Positions 49,961 to 63,341 of a stretch of DNA of 64,000 bases are shown here, one piece after another. The DNA lies in the NCBI RefSeq assembly GCF_004123805.1, contig NZ_RWJX01000006.1, positions 1 to 64,000 on the forward strand, in the 5' to 3' direction. The notes below the pieces were generated by a model that worked only from the letters and a program-made list of their open reading frames with translations, made no database searches and had not been told where the DNA came from. The position numbers were made by a program, and so were the translations under genes. This DNA is from Cellulomonas endophytica (GTDB lineage: Bacteria; Actinomycetota; Actinomycetes; Actinomycetales; Cellulomonadaceae). The stretch's first letter is position 1, and each line of letters begins with the position of its first letter.

Positions 49961-50347
49961 GTGGCAGGGCAGGACGGCGAGGCCCCGGCGGCCGCGCCGG
50001 CACCGGCGAGCGCCGCGCACCCCCCGACCGCCCTCGCCGACGCGGGGACGCCGCCGGAGCTCGCGCGGCTGCGGCACAGCATCGACAACATCGACGCCGC
50101 CCTCGTGCACCTGCTCGCGGAGCGCTTCAAGGCCACGCAGCAGGTCGGCCTGCTGAAGGCGGAGCGCGGCCTGCCCCCGGCGGACCCCGCGCGCGAGGCG
50201 CGGCAGGTCGCGCGGCTGCGCGCCCTGGCCGTGGACGCCGACCTCGACCCCGTGTTCGCGGAGAAGTTCCTCGCGTTCATCGTCGAGGAGGTCATCCGGC
50301 ACCACGAGGCGCTGGCCCAGGACGCATCGGCCGGGCCGAGCGCCTGA
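49961..50347 (+). CDS. chorismate mutase (AroQ type)
   Basis: A 128-residue AroQ-fold mutase converting chorismate to prephenate for Phe/Tyr synthesis. Helix 1 R-L-R-H-S-I-D-N-I-D-A-A-L-V-H-L-L-A-E-R and E-R-G-L-P-P-A-D-P-A-R-E match the intracellular actinobacterial mutases that bind DAHP synthase. GTG at 49961, 5 nt behind clpX, so it is probably cotranscribed. An Ala/Pro-rich N-terminal tail precedes the domain. Confidence 0.9.
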   Translation: MAGQDGEAPAAAPAPASAAHPPTALADAGTPPELARLRHSIDNIDAALVHLLAERFKATQQVGLLKAERGLPPADPAREARQVARLRALAVDADLDPVFAEKFLAFIVEEVIRHHEALAQDASAGPSA

Positions 50348-55286: not shown

Positions 55287-55991
55287 GTGGCGGACCTGAC
55301 GGGGCGGCGCGTGCTGGTCACCGGCGGCAGCGGGGGGCTCGGGTCGCGGGTGGCGGCGCGGCTGGCGGGGGCCGGCGCGCGGCTCGCCCTCGTCGCCCGG
55401 GACGCGGACCGCCTGGCCGCCGCGGCGCCCGAGGGGGCCACCCTGCTGCCCGCCGACCTGCGGCGGCCGGAGGAGCCCGCCCGCGTCGTGGCCGCGGCGG
55501 TGGAGGCCCTCGGCGGTCTCGACGCGGTGGTCGTGGCGCACGGGGTGGTGGCGTTCGGGGCCGTGGAGGACCTGGACGCGGCGACGCTGGCCACGCTCTT
55601 CGCGACGAACGCGCTCTCGCCCGCGCTGCTGCTGGCGGCCGCGGTGCCGCACCTCGTCGCGTCGGCGGAGGCGGGGCGCACGCCCGTGGTGCTGCACGTG
55701 TCCGCCGTCGTCGCCGAGCGTCCGACCGCCGGCATGGCCGCCTACAGCGCGAGCAAGGCGGCGCTCACAGCCCTCGACGCCGCCGCGGCCCGCGAGCTGC
55801 GCCGCCGCGGGGTGCGCGTGGTCGACGCCCGGCCCCCGCACACCGGGACGGGCCTGGCCGAGCGGCCGCTGACGGGCACCGCCCCCGCGCTGGGCGCGGG
55901 GCTGGACCCGGACGCGGTGGCCGACCGCCTCGTCCGGGCCCTCGTCGACGACGAGCGCGACCTGCCGGCCTCGGCGTTCGACGCGGGCTGA
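55287..55991 (+). CDS. short-chain dehydrogenase/reductase
   Basis: A 234-residue SDR: T-G-G-S-G-G-L-G near the start, A-T-N-A-L-S and Y-S-A-S-K in the active site (Y and K catalytic). NAD(P)-dependent oxidoreductase with unknown substrate. GTG at 55287 behind GGAGGGCGGGG. It precedes the NRPS gene by 174 bp on the same strand and could belong to that cluster, but this is not shown by spacing alone. Confidence 0.85.
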   Translation: MADLTGRRVLVTGGSGGLGSRVAARLAGAGARLALVARDADRLAAAAPEGATLLPADLRRPEEPARVVAAAVEALGGLDAVVVAHGVVAFGAVEDLDAATLATLFATNALSPALLLAAAVPHLVASAEAGRTPVVLHVSAVVAERPTAGMAAYSASKAALTALDAAAARELRRRGVRVVDARPPHTGTGLAERPLTGTAPALGAGLDPDAVADRLVRALVDDERDLPASAFDAG

Positions 55992-56165
55992 CGCGCCGCT
56001 GCCCCCGGCCTCCGGTCCGGCCGTCCCGTCCCTGGACACGTCGGAACCGGCGCCCCGGGCCTGGCAGGATCGGCGCCGGTCGCGCCGCACGGCGGGCCGG
56101 GCCGTCGCGGGACGGGGCGGAGGCCAGCACCCGACGGCCCCGGGGGACGCCGGGGGGACGGACCG

Positions 56166-59100
56166 ATGGACGAGGGCCTGCGACGCGCCCACCGCGCGCC
56201 CGACGCGCGCACGCTCGTCGACGTCCTGACGGCGACCGCCGCGGCGCACCCGCACGCGCCGGCGCTCGACGACGGCACGACCGCGCTGAGCTACGCCGAG
56301 CTCGAGCTCGTCGTGGGTGCGGCGGCCGCGGGGCTGGCCGCCGAGGGCGTGCGGCGGGGGGACCGCGTCGGCGTCCGCATCCCGTCCGGGACCGTGGAGC
56401 TCTACGCGGCCGTGCTGGCCGTCCTGCGCGCGGGCGCCGCGTACGTGCCCGTGGACGCCGACGACCCCGACGAGCGGGCGCGGACGGTCTTCGACGAGGC
56501 CGGCGTCGTGCGCGTCCTCGGCGCGGACGACCTGTCCCTCCTCGCGGCGGCGGGTGAGGGCACAGCCCTGCCCCCGCACCCGGGGCTCGACGACGACGCC
56601 TGGATCATCTTCACCTCCGGCTCCACCGGCCTGCCCAAGGGCGTCGCGGTGACCCACCGGTCCGCGGCGGCCTTCGTCGACGCCGAGGCGCGGCTGTTCC
56701 TCCAGGGCACCCCGCTCGGCCCGGGGGACCGGGTGCTCGCCGGGCTCTCGGTCGCCTTCGACGCCTCCTGCGAGGAGATGTGGCTGGCGTGGGGGCACGG
56801 CGCGTGCCTCGTGCCCGCCCCCCGGGCGCTCGTGCGCAGCGGCGTCGACCTCGGCCCCTGGCTCGTCACGCAGGGCGTCACCGTCATCTCGACCGTGCCG
56901 ACGCTGGCGGGGCTCTGGCGCCCGGACGAGCTCGAGGCCGTCCGGCTGCTCGTCTTCGGCGGCGAGGCGTGCCCGCCCGAGCTCGCCGCCCGGCTCGTCG
57001 CGCCCGACCGGGAGGTCTGGAACACGTACGGGCCCACGGAGGCGACCGTCGTGGCGTGCGCCGCGCCCCTGACGGGCAGCGGCACCGTGCGCATCGGGCA
57101 CGCGCTCGACGGCTGGGACCTGGAGGTGCTCGCCCCCGACGGCACGCCCGTGCCGCCCGGCGGGGTGGGCGAGCTCGTCATCGGCGGCGTCGGCCTGGCC
57201 CGCTACCTCGACGCGACGAAGGACGCCGCCGCCTACGCGCCGCTGCCGCAGCTCGGCTGGGAGCGCGCGTACCGCTCCGGCGACCTCGTCCGGGCCGACC
57301 CCGAGGGCCTCGTCTTCGTCGGGCGGGCCGACGACCAGGTCAAGGTCGGCGGCCGGCGCATCGAGCTCGGCGAGGTCGACGCGGCGCTGCTGGCCGTGCC
57401 CGGGGTCGCCGCCGCGGCCGCCGCGGTCCGCACCACGCCGGCGGGCACCGCCGTGCTCGTCGGGTACCTCGTGCCCGCCGACGGGCCGCTGGACCTCGCG
57501 GCGGCCCGCGCCGTGCTGGCCGGGCGGCTGCCGGCCGCCCTCGTCCCGCTGCTGGCCGCCGTGGAGGCGCTGCCCACGCGCGGGTCCGGCAAGGTCGACC
57601 GGGCGGCGCTGCCGTGGCCGCTGCCCGGCGCGCCGGCCACCGCGGGCGACGCCCCCGCCGCGCCGCTCGGCCCGACCGCCGCCTGGGTCGCGCCGCGCTG
57701 GACCGCCGCCCTCGGCACGCCCGTGGCCGGGCCCGACGAGGACTTCTTCCTCGCCGGCGGCGGCAGCCTCGTGGCGGCGCAGCTCGTCGCGGCGCTGCGC
57801 GAGCGGTGGCCGACCGTCACGGTCGCGGACGTCTACGAGCACCCGCGCCTGGGCGCCCTGGCCGACCGCCTCGACGAGCTCGCGCCCGCCGCCGGGACGG
57901 TGACCGGCCCGTCCGCGACGCCCGGGCCCGTGCCCGCGCACGTGCCGTGGGTGCAGGCGGCGCTCGGCCTCGTCCCCGCCGCCCTCGTCGGGGCGCGCTG
58001 GCTCACCTGGGCGCTGGCGGTCGTCGCGCTCCTCGACGCCCTGGGGCGGCACCCCGCGTGGCTGCCGGCCGTCCCCGGAGCGCTGCCCGCCGCGCTCGTC
58101 GGCTGGGTGCTCCTCGTCAGCCCGCTCGGCCGCATGGGCACCTCCGTGCTCGTCGCGCGGACCCTGCTGCGGGGGCTGCGGCCCGGCTCCTACCCCCGCG
58201 GTGGCGTCGTGCACCTGCGGCTGTGGTTCACGGAGCAGTGGGTGCGGGCCGCCGGCGCGGAGGGCCTGTCCTGCGCGCCCTGGACCGCCGCCTACGCCCG
58301 GGCGCTGGGCGCCCGCGTCGGCCGCGACGTCGACCTGCACACGGCGCCGCCGGTCACGGGCCTGCTCGTGCTCGGCGACGCGTGCGCCGTGGAGCCCGAG
58401 GTGGACCTGCGCGGCCACTGGGTCGACGGCGACGTGCTGCGCGTGGGCCGGGTGCGGGTCGACCGGCGCGCGACCGTCGGGGCGCGCACGACGCTGGCCC
58501 CGGGCACGCGCGTGGGGGAGGGCGCCGAGGTCGGGGCCGGCTCCGCGGTGCTCGGGCACGTGCCGCCTGGAGAGCGCTGGGTCGGCTCGCCGGCCCGGCT
58601 CGACGGCCCCGCCCGCGAGCACTGGCCCCGCACCTCCGCCCCGCGCGCCCGGGCGTGGGTGCTGGGCTACGGCGTCGGCGCCTCGGTCCTGGCCGCGGTG
58701 CCGCTCGGCGCGGCGGCGGCGGGGCTCGTCGTCCTCCTGGCGCTGGGCGGCCTGCTCGATCCCGCGGTGACGGACCCCGCGGACGCCCTGCGGCGGGCCC
58801 TGCTCGCGGCCCCCGCGGCGGCGGCGACGGCCTTCGTGCTGCACGCCCTCGTCGTCCTCGCGGTCGTCCGGCCGCTCGGCCGCGCCACCACGGAGGGCTA
58901 CCACCCCGTCCGCAGCCGCGCCGGGTGGGCCGTCTGGGCCACGCTCCGGCTGCTCGACGAGGCGCGCACCGCCCTCTTCCCGATCTACTCCAGCGCGCTG
59001 ACCCCCGCCTGGCTGCGGGCGCTGGGCGCGGACGTCGGCCGGGACGTGGAGGCCTCGACCGCGCTGCTGCTGCCGCGCATGACGACCGTCGGCGCCGGGG

Positions 59101-60092
59101 CCTTCCTCGCCGACGACACGCTGCTGGCGTCCTACGAGCTCGGCCGCGGCTGGATGCGCATCGCGCCCAGCGTGGTGGGCAAGCGCGCCTTCCTCGGCAA
59201 CTCCGGGATGATCGGGCCGGGCCGCAAGGTGCCCAAGCGCGGGCTGGTCGCCGTGCTGTCGACCACGCCGCGGACCGCGCGCAAGGGCCAGTCCTTCGTC
59301 GGGTCGCCGCCCGTGCGGCTGCGCCGGACCGCCGGGGACGCCGACGCGACCCGGACGTTCGCCCCGCCGGCGCGGCTGCGGGTGGCGCGGGCGCTCGTCG
59401 AGGCGTGCCGGGCCGTGCCCGTCGTGCTCTCCGCCGCGCTGGCCGTGGCCGTGCTCGGCGTGCTGGCGGCGCTGGCGGCCGGGCGGGGGATCGGCACGGC
59501 CCTGCTGCTGGCCGGGCCGGTGGTCCTCGGCGCGGCCGCCGTGGCGTGCGCGCTGGCGACCACCGCGAAGTGGCTCCTCGTCGGGCGGCACCGCGTGGCC
59601 GAGCACCCGCTGTGGAGCGCGCGGGTGTGGCTCGACGAGCTGGCCGACACCTTCGTCGAGCAGCTCGCCGTGCCCTGGCTCGGGCCGGCGGCCGCCGGGT
59701 CGCCCGCGCTCACGTGGTGGCTGCGCAGCCTGGGGGCCCGCATCGGGCGGGGCACCTGGTGCGAGACGTACTGGCTGCCCGAGGCGGACCTGGTCGAGCT
59801 CGGCGCCGGCGCGACGGTCAACCGCGGCTGCGTGCTGCAGACGCACCTCTTCCACGACCGGGTCCTCAGCACGGGGACCGTCCGCCTCGGGGCCGGTGCC
59901 GGCATGGGCCCGCACGGGGTCGTCCTGCCGGCCGCCGAGCTCGGCGCCGGGACGCTCGTCGGGCCCGCGTCCCTCGTGCTGCGCGGCGACCGCCTGCCCC
60001 CGGGGACGCGCTGGACGGGCAACCCGGTGGCGCCGGACGGCCGGGCGGCGGGGCTCCCGGTGGCGCCCGTCGCCCCCGTCGGGGCACGGTGA
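56166..60092 (+). CDS. Pls/PosA-type non-ribosomal peptide synthetase (predicted basic poly-amino-acid synthase)
   Basis: A 1308-residue single-module NRPS. Residues 1-480: adenylation domain with T-S-G-S-T-G-L-P-K-G (150-159), Y-G-P-T-E (288-292) and K476. Residues about 505-575: carrier protein with S534 in G-G-G-S-L for phosphopantetheine. The rest has about six membrane segments interleaved with hexapeptide-like regions; no condensation (HHxxxDG) or thioesterase domain. Length and layout match epsilon-poly-lysine synthetase (1319 aa in S. albulus). Pocket residues aligned to GrsA read D199-A200-E203-S242-V263-G265-T287-V295-V296-K476, close to a published Lys code (DAESIGSVCK). ATG with GGGGGGACGG Shine-Dalgarno. 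Coupled to an M1 peptidase; PPTase 2.4 kb downstream. Confidence 0.88.
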   Translation: MDEGLRRAHRAPDARTLVDVLTATAAAHPHAPALDDGTTALSYAELELVVGAAAAGLAAEGVRRGDRVGVRIPSGTVELYAAVLAVLRAGAAYVPVDADDPDERARTVFDEAGVVRVLGADDLSLLAAAGEGTALPPHPGLDDDAWIIFTSGSTGLPKGVAVTHRSAAAFVDAEARLFLQGTPLGPGDRVLAGLSVAFDASCEEMWLAWGHGACLVPAPRALVRSGVDLGPWLVTQGVTVISTVPTLAGLWRPDELEAVRLLVFGGEACPPELAARLVAPDREVWNTYGPTEATVVACAAPLTGSGTVRIGHALDGWDLEVLAPDGTPVPPGGVGELVIGGVGLARYLDATKDAAAYAPLPQLGWERAYRSGDLVRADPEGLVFVGRADDQVKVGGRRIELGEVDAALLAVPGVAAAAAAVRTTPAGTAVLVGYLVPADGPLDLAAARAVLAGRLPAALVPLLAAVEALPTRGSGKVDRAALPWPLPGAPATAGDAPAAPLGPTAAWVAPRWTAALGTPVAGPDEDFFLAGGGSLVAAQLVAALRERWPTVTVADVYEHPRLGALADRLDELAPAAGTVTGPSATPGPVPAHVPWVQAALGLVPAALVGARWLTWALAVVALLDALGRHPAWLPAVPGALPAALVGWVLLVSPLGRMGTSVLVARTLLRGLRPGSYPRGGVVHLRLWFTEQWVRAAGAEGLSCAPWTAAYARALGARVGRDVDLHTAPPVTGLLVLGDACAVEPEVDLRGHWVDGDVLRVGRVRVDRRATVGARTTLAPGTRVGEGAEVGAGSAVLGHVPPGERWVGSPARLDGPAREHWPRTSAPRARAWVLGYGVGASVLAAVPLGAAAAGLVVLLALGGLLDPAVTDPADALRRALLAAPAAAATAFVLHALVVLAVVRPLGRATTEGYHPVRSRAGWAVWATLRLLDEARTALFPIYSSALTPAWLRALGADVGRDVEASTALLLPRMTTVGAGAFLADDTLLASYELGRGWMRIAPSVVGKRAFLGNSGMIGPGRKVPKRGLVAVLSTTPRTARKGQSFVGSPPVRLRRTAGDADATRTFAPPARLRVARALVEACRAVPVVLSAALAVAVLGVLAALAAGRGIGTALLLAGPVVLGAAAVACALATTAKWLLVGRHRVAEHPLWSARVWLDELADTFVEQLAVPWLGPAAAGSPALTWWLRSLGARIGRGTWCETYWLPEADLVELGAGATVNRGCVLQTHLFHDRVLSTGTVRLGAGAGMGPHGVVLPAAELGAGTLVGPASLVLRGDRLPPGTRWTGNPVAPDGRAAGLPVAPVAPVGAR

Positions 60093-61453
60093 CCGGCGTG
60101 GTGCCGGACCCCTACGTGCCCCACCGCGGCGGTGGCGGCCTGCGGGTCGAGCGCTACGACCTCGAGCTCGACTACCGCGTGCGCACGAACCGGCTCGCCG
60201 GCACCGCGCGGCTCCAGGGCGTCGCGACGCTCGACGTCGACCGCGTGACGCTCGACCTGGACCGGCTGCGGGTGGAGGACGTGCGCGTCGACGGCGCGCG
60301 CGCCCGCTGGACGCACCGGGACGGGCGCCTGGTCGTGCGACTGCCGGCGCCGGTCCGGGCGGGCACGGGGCTCGTCGTCGAGGTGCGCTACGCCGGGGCG
60401 CCGCGGCCGACCCGCGGGCCCTGGGGCGAGGTTGGCTGGGAGGAGCTGACGGACGGGGTGCTCGTGGCCGGGCAGCCCGACGGCGCCCCCTCGTGGTTCC
60501 CCTGCGTCGACCTGCCGGGGGAGAAGGCCGAGCTGCGGCTCGTCCTCACCACGGAGCCCGGCTACACGCTCGTCGGCAACGCCCCGGTCCTCGCGCGGAC
60601 CTCCCGCGCGGGCTCCGTGCGCTGGGAGCTGGCGCCCTCCGCGCCGCTGGCCCCCTACCTGGCGACCGTCCAGCTCGGCCGGTACGAGCGCCACGTCCTC
60701 GCGCCCGGCCCCGACGGCGGGCCCGGGGTGGGGCAGGACGTCCGCCAGGAGGTGCACGCGCCCGCCGCGCGCCGGGCCGGGGCGCTGCGGGACCTCGCCC
60801 GGCAGCCGGTCATGATGAGGCTGTTCTCGGACCTGTTCGGGCCGTACCCCTTCGACTCCTACGCGGTGGTCGTCACGGACGACCCGCTGGAGATCCCGCT
60901 GGAGGCCCAGGGCCTGTCGGTGTTCGGCGCGCAGCACCTCGACGGGCGCGGCGGGTACGAGCGGCTCGTCGCGCACGAGCTCGCGCACCAGTGGTTCGGC
61001 AACAGCCTCACGGCGACGACGTGGCGCGACATCTGGCTGCACGAGGGCTTCGCCTGCTACGCGGAGTGGCTGTGGTGGGAGGCCTCCGGGCAGGCGTCCG
61101 CCGATCGCACGGCGCGCGAGGCGCTCACCCGGCTGCGGCGGCTGCCCCAGGACCTCGTGCTCACCGAGCCCGGCGCCGAGCGGATGTTCGACGACCGCGT
61201 CTACCAGCGGGGCGCGCTCACCGTGCACGCCCTGCGGCGGGCGGTCGGCGACGGGCCCTTCGTCGACGTGCTGCGGGCGTGGACGGCGCGGTACCGGCAC
61301 GCGACGGTGCGGACCGCGGACCTGCTCGCGGTCGTGCGCGAGGTGGCGGGGCGCGACGTCTCGCCCGTGCTGCTGCCCTGGCTGCAGGAGGCGGGGCTGC
61401 CCGACCTGCCCTCGGGCAGCGGCGGCGGTCGGCTGCGCCGGCTGCGGCTCTGA
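60089..61453 (+). CDS. M1-family zinc metallopeptidase
   Basis: A 454-residue aminopeptidase-N-like enzyme without a signal peptide or the long C-terminal domain of PepN. Zinc site H296-E297-x-x-H300 (H-E-L-A-H-Q-W-F-G-N) and E319; the substrate-side motif is A-Q-G-L-S-V-F-G where many members have G-x-M-E-N. GTG overlaps the pls stop (GTGA), so it is translated together with the synthetase. The likely role is trimming or degrading the polymer, or self-protection; peptidases next to poly-lysine synthetases are known, but this one is untested. Confidence 0.9.
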   Translation: MTGVVPDPYVPHRGGGGLRVERYDLELDYRVRTNRLAGTARLQGVATLDVDRVTLDLDRLRVEDVRVDGARARWTHRDGRLVVRLPAPVRAGTGLVVEVRYAGAPRPTRGPWGEVGWEELTDGVLVAGQPDGAPSWFPCVDLPGEKAELRLVLTTEPGYTLVGNAPVLARTSRAGSVRWELAPSAPLAPYLATVQLGRYERHVLAPGPDGGPGVGQDVRQEVHAPAARRAGALRDLARQPVMMRLFSDLFGPYPFDSYAVVVTDDPLEIPLEAQGLSVFGAQHLDGRGGYERLVAHELAHQWFGNSLTATTWRDIWLHEGFACYAEWLWWEASGQASADRTAREALTRLRRLPQDLVLTEPGAERMFDDRVYQRGALTVHALRRAVGDGPFVDVLRAWTARYRHATVRTADLLAVVREVAGRDVSPVLLPWLQEAGLPDLPSGSGGGRLRRLRL

Positions 61454-61535
61454 CGCGCCGGCCGCGCCGGCGGCCGCGCCGGCGGACCGCCCCGCCCGGG
61501 GCGCGGGGGCGCGCGGGCCGCTCTAGGGTCCGGAC

Positions 61536-62471
61536 GTGAAGACCTTCACCCTGCCCGGCACCGACATCACCGCGCCGAACGTCGTCCTCGGCCTCATGCG
61601 GATCACGGACAAGACCGACGACGAGGTGCGCGACCTGCTCCGGGCCGCCCGCGACGCCGGCATCGACTTCCTCGACCACGCCGACGTCTACGGTTCGGAG
61701 CTCCACCACTGCGAGCGGCGCTTCGCCGAGGCGATGGCGCTCACCGCCTCGCAGCGGGACGAGCTGACGATCCAGACGAAGTGCGGCATCGTCCCCGACG
61801 GCCCGTACTTCGACTTCTCCTACGAGCACGTCGTCGCGTCCGTCGAGGGCTCGCTCGAGGCGCTGCGCACGGACCGCATCGACGTCCTGCTGCTGCACCG
61901 CCCCGACGCGCTCGTCGAGCCCGAGGAGGTCGCGCGGGCGTTCGACACGCTGCACGCCGCGGGCAAGGTGCGCGCCTTCGGCGTCTCCAACCACACCCCC
62001 CGGCAGATCGACCTGCTGCGCCGGTACGTGCAGCAGCCGATCGTCGCCAACCAGGTGCAGCTGTCGATCCCGCACGCGCCGCTCGTCGCGCAGGGCGTCG
62101 CCGGGAACATGCTCGCCGAGGACCAGTCCGTGGTGCGGGACGGTGGCGGGATGCTGGACTACTGCCGCCTCCACGACATCACCGTCCAGGCCTGGTCCCC
62201 GTTCCAGGGCGGCTTCTTCACCGGCGCCTTCCTCGGCGACCCGGCGTTCGCCGAGCTCAACGCCGTGGTCGACCGGCTCGCCGCCGCCTACGACGTGCCG
62301 CCGATCGCCATCGCCACCGCCTGGATCACGCGGCACCCGGCGCAGATGCAGGTCGTGCTCGGCACGACGACCCCCGAGCGCGTCACCGGCGCCGCCCAGG
62401 GGTCGGACCTGCCGCTCACGCGCGCGGAGTGGTACGAGCTGTTCCGCGCCGCCGGGCACATCGTCCCCTGA
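61536..62471 (+). CDS. aldo/keto reductase
   Basis: A 311-residue TIM-barrel AKR with the tetrad: D-H-A-D-V-Y-G (Asp, Tyr), K83-region T-K-C-G and H-R-P in L-L-L-H-R-P. NADPH-dependent; substrate not known. TAGGGT plus 6 nt precedes the GTG: leaderless, so it is a separate transcription unit from pls-M1. Confidence 0.9.
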   Translation: MKTFTLPGTDITAPNVVLGLMRITDKTDDEVRDLLRAARDAGIDFLDHADVYGSELHHCERRFAEAMALTASQRDELTIQTKCGIVPDGPYFDFSYEHVVASVEGSLEALRTDRIDVLLLHRPDALVEPEEVARAFDTLHAAGKVRAFGVSNHTPRQIDLLRRYVQQPIVANQVQLSIPHAPLVAQGVAGNMLAEDQSVVRDGGGMLDYCRLHDITVQAWSPFQGGFFTGAFLGDPAFAELNAVVDRLAAAYDVPPIAIATAWITRHPAQMQVVLGTTTPERVTGAAQGSDLPLTRAEWYELFRAAGHIVP

Positions 62472-62516
62472 GCGGCCCGGCGGCGGCCGCACGGGCGGTC
62501 CGGCGGACCGGGTCCC

Positions 62517-63341
62517 TCACGCCCCGTGGGGGACCGTCGGGGCCGGGTCGCCGAGCAGGTCGACGAGCCCGCTGTCGACCCGCCCCGCCCCGGGCGGACC
62601 TGCGGCGGCGTCGGCGCCCCGCCGGGTCGTCCGCAGCGCCAGCGCGGCGGCCGCCCCCGGCGGGGCGCCGGCGGGCACGACGAGGTCGAGCAGCCACCAC
62701 CGGCCGCCTGCGAGCCGCGGGTCCGCCGTGCGCACGGCGGGGGCGCCCGCGGCGTCCGCGACGTCCAGCGCACCGGAGGCCAGCCGCAGCCCGCACCCGG
62801 CGGCCTTGAGCACGGCCTCCGCCCGCACCCACCGGGTGCGTCGGTCGTCGGCGCCCCCGCCGGGCGCCGCGCGCACCCCGGCGGCCCGGAGCGCGTCGGC
62901 GGGCACCGCGCCGCTCTCCACGTCGACCCCGAGCCCGTCCGCGGGCCCGTCCGCGAGCCCGTCCCCGAGCCCGTCCCCGGGCCCGTCCCCGGGGCCGGAC
63001 GCACGGCCCCCGGCCGCCCGCCCGAGGGCGACGACGACGAGGCCCGGCGTGCGCGCCAGGCTCACGAGCGGCGCGGGCCGGCCCGGTGGCCCCCCGACGA
63101 CGCGCGGTGCCCCGTGCCGGCCGGAGCCGCAGCGCGGGCACCGGCGCACGAGCCGCCCGCGGCCGTCCGTGGCCCCGTGCACCACGGCGTCGGCGAGCAC
63201 GAGCGAGGCGGCCAGCGCGTCGCGCACCGGTCCGGGCCGGTGGGCGGCGACGCGCTCGCGGTCCGCGGGCCCGAGGCGGGGGAGGAGGGCGTCGGCGGGC
63301 GGCGGCACGGCGAACCGCACCGTCACCGCGCCCGCGTCCAC
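62517..63341 (-). CDS. Sfp-type 4'-phosphopantetheinyl transferase
   Basis: A 274-residue PPTase. The metal/CoA motif is G-V-D-V-E-S, and the second motif W-V-R-A-E-A-V-L-K-A-A-G corresponds to W-x-x-K-E-A-x-x-K. It transfers phosphopantetheine from CoA to carrier proteins; the nearby single-module NRPS carrier is the obvious substrate. CAGGAT plus 6 nt before the GTG gives a leaderless transcript. A 12-bp tandem repeat inserts a Gly/Asp-rich stretch directly before the first motif. Convergent with the AKR gene. Confidence 0.82.
   Translation of the reverse strand: MDAGAVTVRFAVPPPADALLPRLGPADRERVAAHRPGPVRDALAASLVLADAVVHGATDGRGRLVRRCPRCGSGRHGAPRVVGGPPGRPAPLVSLARTPGLVVVALGRAAGGRASGPGDGPGDGLGDGLADGPADGLGVDVESGAVPADALRAAGVRAAPGGGADDRRTRWVRAEAVLKAAGCGLRLASGALDVADAAGAPAVRTADPRLAGGRWWLLDLVVPAGAPPGAAAALALRTTRRGADAAAGPPGAGRVDSGLVDLLGDPAPTVPHGA
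62931..62990. repeat. 12-bp in-frame tandem repeat in the PPTase gene
   Basis: Five 12-bp units (G(A/G)GCCCGTCC(C/G)C) encode repeats of the type Gly-Asp-Gly-(Pro/Leu), ending a few residues before the catalytic G-V-D-V-E-S. Copy-number change stays in frame. Confidence 0.88.

Follow-up and report, generated by a model that had tools for sequence, protein, structure and literature searches.

What might a bacterium make from a large adenylating synthetase encoded immediately upstream of a metallopeptidase? The question is raised by positions 55287-63341 of a stretch of DNA from Cellulomonas endophytica (contig NZ_RWJX01000006.1, positions 1 to 64,000; hereafter the window, meaning all 64,000 nucleotides), whose genome assembly comprises 4.2 Mb in 174 contigs. 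The locus is very probably the Cellulomonas version of pls-pldII, a module known from other actinomycetes that encodes synthesis of epsilon-poly-L-lysine (epsilon-PL), a naturally occurring antimicrobial polymer, and cutting of the polymer by a peptidase. Our basis for this is homology, architecture, pocket residues, gene overlap and conservation; for lysine activation, polymer formation, the epsilon linkage and the role of the peptidase we infer from characterised relatives. Epsilon-PL is accordingly named here as the most likely product, as predicted from the encoded proteins.

The pls gene (56166-60092, + strand) encodes a predicted epsilon-poly-L-lysine-type synthetase of 1308 residues, with an adenylation (A) domain at ~1-489, a carrier (T) domain at ~509-569 and a region of six transmembrane (TM) helices and three C domains at ~576-1290. 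AMP-binding (E 2.7e-59) and PP-binding (E 3.3e-9) are the sole Pfam domains over cut-off, and neither a Condensation nor a Thioesterase domain appears at E 0.001, in agreement with the sequence-only reading of this DNA, which had described a non-ribosomal peptide synthetase (NRPS) of just this composition and placed it among the Pls/PosA polymer synthases that work outside normal NRPS lines. That placement is also supported by the NCBIfam model TIGR02353 ("Pls/PosA family non-ribosomal peptide synthetase"), whose match to residues 598-1288 scores 645.8 bits (cut-off 423.1), and by the closest solved chain for the A domain, 7WEW_A (epsilon-poly-L-lysine synthase; 637 bits, 66-67% A-domain identity). 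The best homologues are thus not standard NRPS modules, which follow 7WEW at no more than 336 bits. Because of these matches, the architecture and a lysine-type pocket, we assign the protein to the Pls/PosA type. Matches of the A and T domains extend to linear gramicidin synthetase and further NRPSs, as would those of an ordinary NRPS module with its partner modules elsewhere in the genome. We give such a module next to no chance, since 7WEW far outscores the standard NRPS chains, TIGR02353 is over its cut-off, and no Condensation domain is found at E 0.01 in the genome assembly, which is 99.59% complete; a standard assembly line was rejected on these grounds.

Further support for a Pls/PosA-type synthetase comes from the C-terminal part of the protein. 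By hydropathy (sliding window 19, Kyte-Doolittle value of at least 1.6) the protein has three pairs of membrane stretches (~602-623/632-654, 832-869/878-907 and 1076-1121/1108-1139), six in all, bearing out the six or so segments proposed earlier, besides two marginal stretches within the A domain (403-422 and 449-468). An AlphaFold model of residues 576-1308 (733 residues; pLDDT 86.3, pTM 0.89) has long helices at all six places, the second being split in two, and each of the three long-helix pairs precedes a strand-rich region. Foldseek returned 12 matches at E 0.001, nine of them galactoside or serine acetyltransferases and three of them entries of a designed self-assembling protein, so that the best matches of the C region are mostly hexapeptide acyltransferases, albeit with low TM-scores (TMq no higher than 0.17). 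As modelled, the three strand-rich regions agree with the three-beta-helix model described for the C-terminal region of PosA, the delta-poly-L-ornithine synthetase of Acinetobacter baumannii (PMC10522769). Our literature search of open-licence PubMed Central (PMC) found no cryo-electron microscopy structure. Ser534, the phosphopantetheine site of the T domain, is conserved in 103/103 aligned full-length proteins, and a stretch of the third C domain (C3), QTHLFHDR, is nearly fixed, with H1227 and D1231 present in all 103 and H1230 in 102. Because this motif is almost invariant, H1227 and D1231 are reasonable candidates for the amide-forming site. In the divergent loci L052, L055 and L148, the motif reads QTHLFED or QSHSQED.

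The family is widespread. TIGR02353 is over its cut-off in 24/58 relatives, including 19 of the 36 genomes of the genus, in 14/296 genomes of a phylum-wide draw (the window's own included) and in one of 14 control genomes, Corynebacterium glutamicum, a species in which, when it was used as a host, no epsilon-PL was detected (PMC8117764). A Pls homologue has also been mentioned in Nocardia (PMC4035055). A scan of named genomes, seeded with the peptide patterns ASCEEMW and AYVPVD[AV]D, yielded at least 595 matched stretches, at least 577 of them confirmed; the named loci discussed below are the best 80 of these at least 577, a set in which more distant members could not appear and which includes Cellulomonas, Rhodococcus, Nocardia, Mycobacterium, Arthrobacter, Curtobacterium and Kribbella. 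The named loci overlap with the genomes of the other sets (for example L062 = G022, L063 = G017, L064 = G010), and their counts are not independent. Open-licence PMC held no paper pairing Cellulomonas with a poly-L-lysine synthetase, other wordings and subscription journals lying outside the scope of that search.

The ten substrate pocket positions of the window protein, mapped from GrsA numbering, are D199, A200, E203, S242, V263, G265, T287, V295, V296 and K476. The resulting code, DAESVGTVVK, is identical at 9/10 positions to the DAESIGTVVK of 7WEW, which points to L-lysine as the predicted monomer. Position 2 is Ala in the window, neither the Met nor the Phe of a non-lysine pocket. In the published analysis of PosA, the substrate is held by its two amines at code positions 1 and 3, and side-chain length appears to be determined at position 2, where lysine enzymes have Ala, PosA has Met and the PDAP and PDAB synthetases have Phe; the residue equivalent to position 5 makes no substrate contact (PMC10522769). 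A synthetase of the same family making a cationic homopolymer from ornithine, diaminobutyrate, diaminopropionate or beta-lysine would share the family model and the C-terminal domain, and other members do occur nearby; we nevertheless consider another diamino acid very unlikely, as the pocket departs from that of 7WEW at one position in ten and has Ala at position 2. The nearby member is L052 (2725-6639), a full-length protein from the same order with the code DFEYNGTVTK, which has Phe at position 2 as in the PDAP and PDAB synthetases. Three other divergent loci (L055, L148 and L149, in genomes G040, G219 and G186) have a separate A-T protein of ~640-700 residues adjoining a separate TIGR02353-type protein, and the pocket reading obtained there, DIWQSTADDK, is probably a misalignment.

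The gene that follows pls, a pldII-like M1 metallopeptidase gene (60089-61453, + strand), matches PF01433 (E 4.8e-26) and has an intact HEXXHX18E zinc motif. Its GTG start codon (60089-60091) overlaps the TGA stop of the synthetase (60090-60092) by 4 bp, and with this start the protein has 454 residues; the operon of synthetase and M1 peptidase suggested by the sequence-only reading is in keeping with this overlap. An M1 homologue lies 3' of pls in each of the 21 full-length loci of relatives that have the lysine code (L031-L051), in the contig-split L053, in all of the best 80 named loci, and in 12/12 lysine-code loci of the phylum-wide draw. The in-frame 4-bp overlap recurs in 45 of the best 80, while in L083, L103, L104 and L122 the M1 match starts ~630-680 bases past the synthetase stop, and in L101 ~2,170 bases past it. 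The gluzincin zinc motif is found in 22/22 relatives (L031-L051 and L053), in 79 of the best 80 (L096 being the exception) and in 12/12 of the draw. In four genomes of one genus, the M1 genes beside lysine-code pls are 49-50% identical to that of the window. Beside the five divergent relatives, L052 and the split L055, L148 and L149 among them together with L056, neither an M1 gene nor the zinc motif was found (0/5), the contig of L055 being only 7.7 kb long. The M1 neighbour thus tracks the lysine-type pocket, a new if modest observation over few divergent loci, and it is a second point against another diamino acid as the monomer. In Streptomyces albulus, where pls and pldII are neighbours and translationally coupled, repression of pldII leads to lower epsilon-PL tolerance and longer polymer (PMC9223678); by analogy with such characterised relatives, the M1 peptidase of the window is predicted to cut epsilon-PL.

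A carrier domain has to be considered together with the enzyme that could prime it. At 62517-63341 (- strand), convergent with pls, lies a predicted Sfp-type 4'-phosphopantetheinyl transferase (PPTase), the probable activator of the synthetase. A dedicated PPTase 2.4 kb away had been proposed; the stated distance holds, the ORF lying 2425 bp beyond the end of pls. The PF01648 match is weak (17.6 bits, below the cut-off of 25). In an alignment, the open reading frame (ORF) shares CPxCG, HG, GVDVE and W...EA..K with PPTase-like ORFs near pls in relatives, although in the window Ala takes the place of the Lys of KEA. In those relatives the ORF is convergent to pls and lies right after the M1 gene or within ~1 kb of it, and of 106 loci scanned for motifs, 21 have such an ORF (L044 and L063 being one genome, and L056 a divergent locus without M1). 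The sole other ACPS-family match in the window's genome looks, by eye, like AcpS behind a glmS-like gene. There are three PP-binding matches in that genome, namely the fatty-acid acyl carrier protein (ACP), an ACP beside an FkbH-like gene (L143, 1477-1713, - strand; 78 residues, free-standing) and the Pls T domain, the neighbourhoods of the two free ACPs having been judged by eye. The argument that the T domain is the sole carrier protein available to the PPTase is weakened by these three matches. From genome content and synteny, the Sfp-type PPTase probably activates the synthetase.

These parts can be assembled into a proposed pathway. The A domain would activate L-lysine as its adenylate and load it onto the phosphopantetheine arm that the convergent PPTase would have installed on Ser534 of the T domain. 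The membrane C region, with its six TM helices and three left-handed beta-helix acyltransferase-like C domains, would then repeatedly join lysines, the epsilon-amine of one to the carboxyl of the next, giving epsilon-PL with no need of a classical condensation or thioesterase domain. A speculative element of this scheme is that amide formation takes place at the C3 motif QTHxxxD. Finally, the M1 peptidase would cut the polymer, thereby setting its length or protecting the producer.

Several observations weigh against this explanation. Position 5 of the pocket code is V in the window and I in 7WEW and in lysine-type relatives (21/21, 80/80 and 12/12, in overlapping sets); the 80/80 result is partly circular, as the seed pattern ASCEEMW fixes code positions 2 and 3, and its free evidence lies in the other positions. 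The low TM-scores of the C region have been mentioned, and in two of the five divergent loci (L056 and L149) the C3 motif pattern has no match. The likeness of the window M1 to PldII is drawn from its zinc motif, PF01433 and the gene overlap. As for the PPTase, its profile matches 15/19 pls-positive and 5/17 pls-negative genomes of the genus (Fisher p 0.006) and adjoins pls in 10 of the 19, but these counts lean to pls-positive genomes because ORFs near pls went into the profile and because, out of 101-184 first-look candidates in each genome, 73 were scored; cases may thus be missed. One of the five pls-negative matches is weak and contains a stop; four pls-positive genomes (G005, G018, G022 and G024) have no profile match; and the table covers 36 of 40 scanned genomes, G058-G061 (two with a match) having been dropped as their pls status was not searched. 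The FkbH-linked carrier protein could also be a target of the PPTase. Lastly, Corynebacterium variabile has a working pls and no detectable polymer in native culture (PMC8117764); the presence of the gene therefore does not mean production.

This last case bears directly on whether the C. endophytica locus is silent or degenerate, with no polymer made in this strain, which is compatible with our explanation of what the genes encode. Besides C. variabile, the 17/36 genomes of the genus without a TIGR02353 match over cut-off speak for silence, and it is set against a full-length, stop-free ORF in which Ser534, H1227, H1230, D1231 and the M1 zinc motif are all intact; on balance we regard a silent locus as unlikely, yet with an appreciable chance of being correct. 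More tentative is a broader proposal, which we consider unlikely: in Cellulomonas and most other carrier actinomycetes, pls-pldII, in some with its own PPTase, may be no secreted-antibiotic pathway, and may make a short epsilon-oligolysine that is trimmed by the peptidase, stays with the cell and serves in the envelope or under acid stress, C3 QTHxxxD being the amide-forming site.

Two further genes of the locus probably do not belong to the system. From 5' to 3' the order is a short-chain dehydrogenase/reductase (SDR) oxidoreductase (55287-55991), pls, the M1 gene and an aldo/keto reductase (AKR; 61536-62471), all on the + strand, then the PPTase-like ORF; upstream of the SDR and divergent from it lies what we take by eye to be a valS-like gene. 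Membership of the SDR and AKR had been left open. Both ORFs are real by Pfam search, and we judge them outside the system because the pls locus of relatives shows neither of them (matches over 60 bits). Flank matches are only 26-33% identical (SDR in L070, L074, L086, L106, L126 and L140, AKR in L064, L076 and L104, among the best 80). The AKR, a widespread gene in Cellulomonas, was rejected as a pathway gene. Among 35 other genomes from the genus, 25 have an orthologue (70-85% identity); 10 of these 25 belong to the 17 genomes that are pls-negative, and in the 15 pls-positive genomes it lies on a different contig from pls or distant on the same contig. The SDR was likewise rejected, with no match at E 1e-30 in those 35 genomes (up to 79 candidates scored per genome). 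Elsewhere in the window, a chorismate-mutase-like stretch (~49990-50347, + strand), judged by eye from its translation, lies directly 3' of clpX.

An intact pls-pldII module is now placed in Cellulomonas, and the Sfp-type PPTase that recurs near it in part of the genus and order could aid heterologous expression. The spread of the module over at least 577 confirmed matches, set against the silence of even a working pls (PMC8117764), raises the question of its use in most carriers. The modest new points are that the module occurs in this genus, that a PPTase recurs close to it, that the M1 neighbour divides by pocket type over the few divergent loci, and that a catalytic motif can be put forward as a candidate.

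Among known systems, PosA has in common with the window locus the name of the family model and the predicted kind of C-terminal fold; the PosA code, DMEHNGTVSK, and its substrate, ornithine, are unlike those of the window, and the main text of PMC10522769 contains no word beginning with "peptidase". The Pls of C. variabile, likened here by its published description, gave epsilon-PL when expressed in Streptomyces coelicolor, and the Results and Discussion of PMC8117764 mention no adjoining PPTase. Pls-PldII of S. albulus has the same A-T-six-TM/three-C architecture as the window. It differs by I in place of V at code position 5, the sequence likeness being drawn from the A domain only (7WEW), and the window has in addition a convergent PPTase and an intervening AKR downstream. 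Translational coupling of pls and pldII in S. albulus (PMC9223678) has its counterpart in the adjacent peptidase gene with its overlapping start. Because pls with a downstream peptidase gene has been published for both S. albulus and C. variabile (PMC8117764, PMC9223678), the layout is not a new kind: the pls-pldII system is already known and common across actinomycetes, and the C. endophytica locus is a real and largely ordinary example of it.

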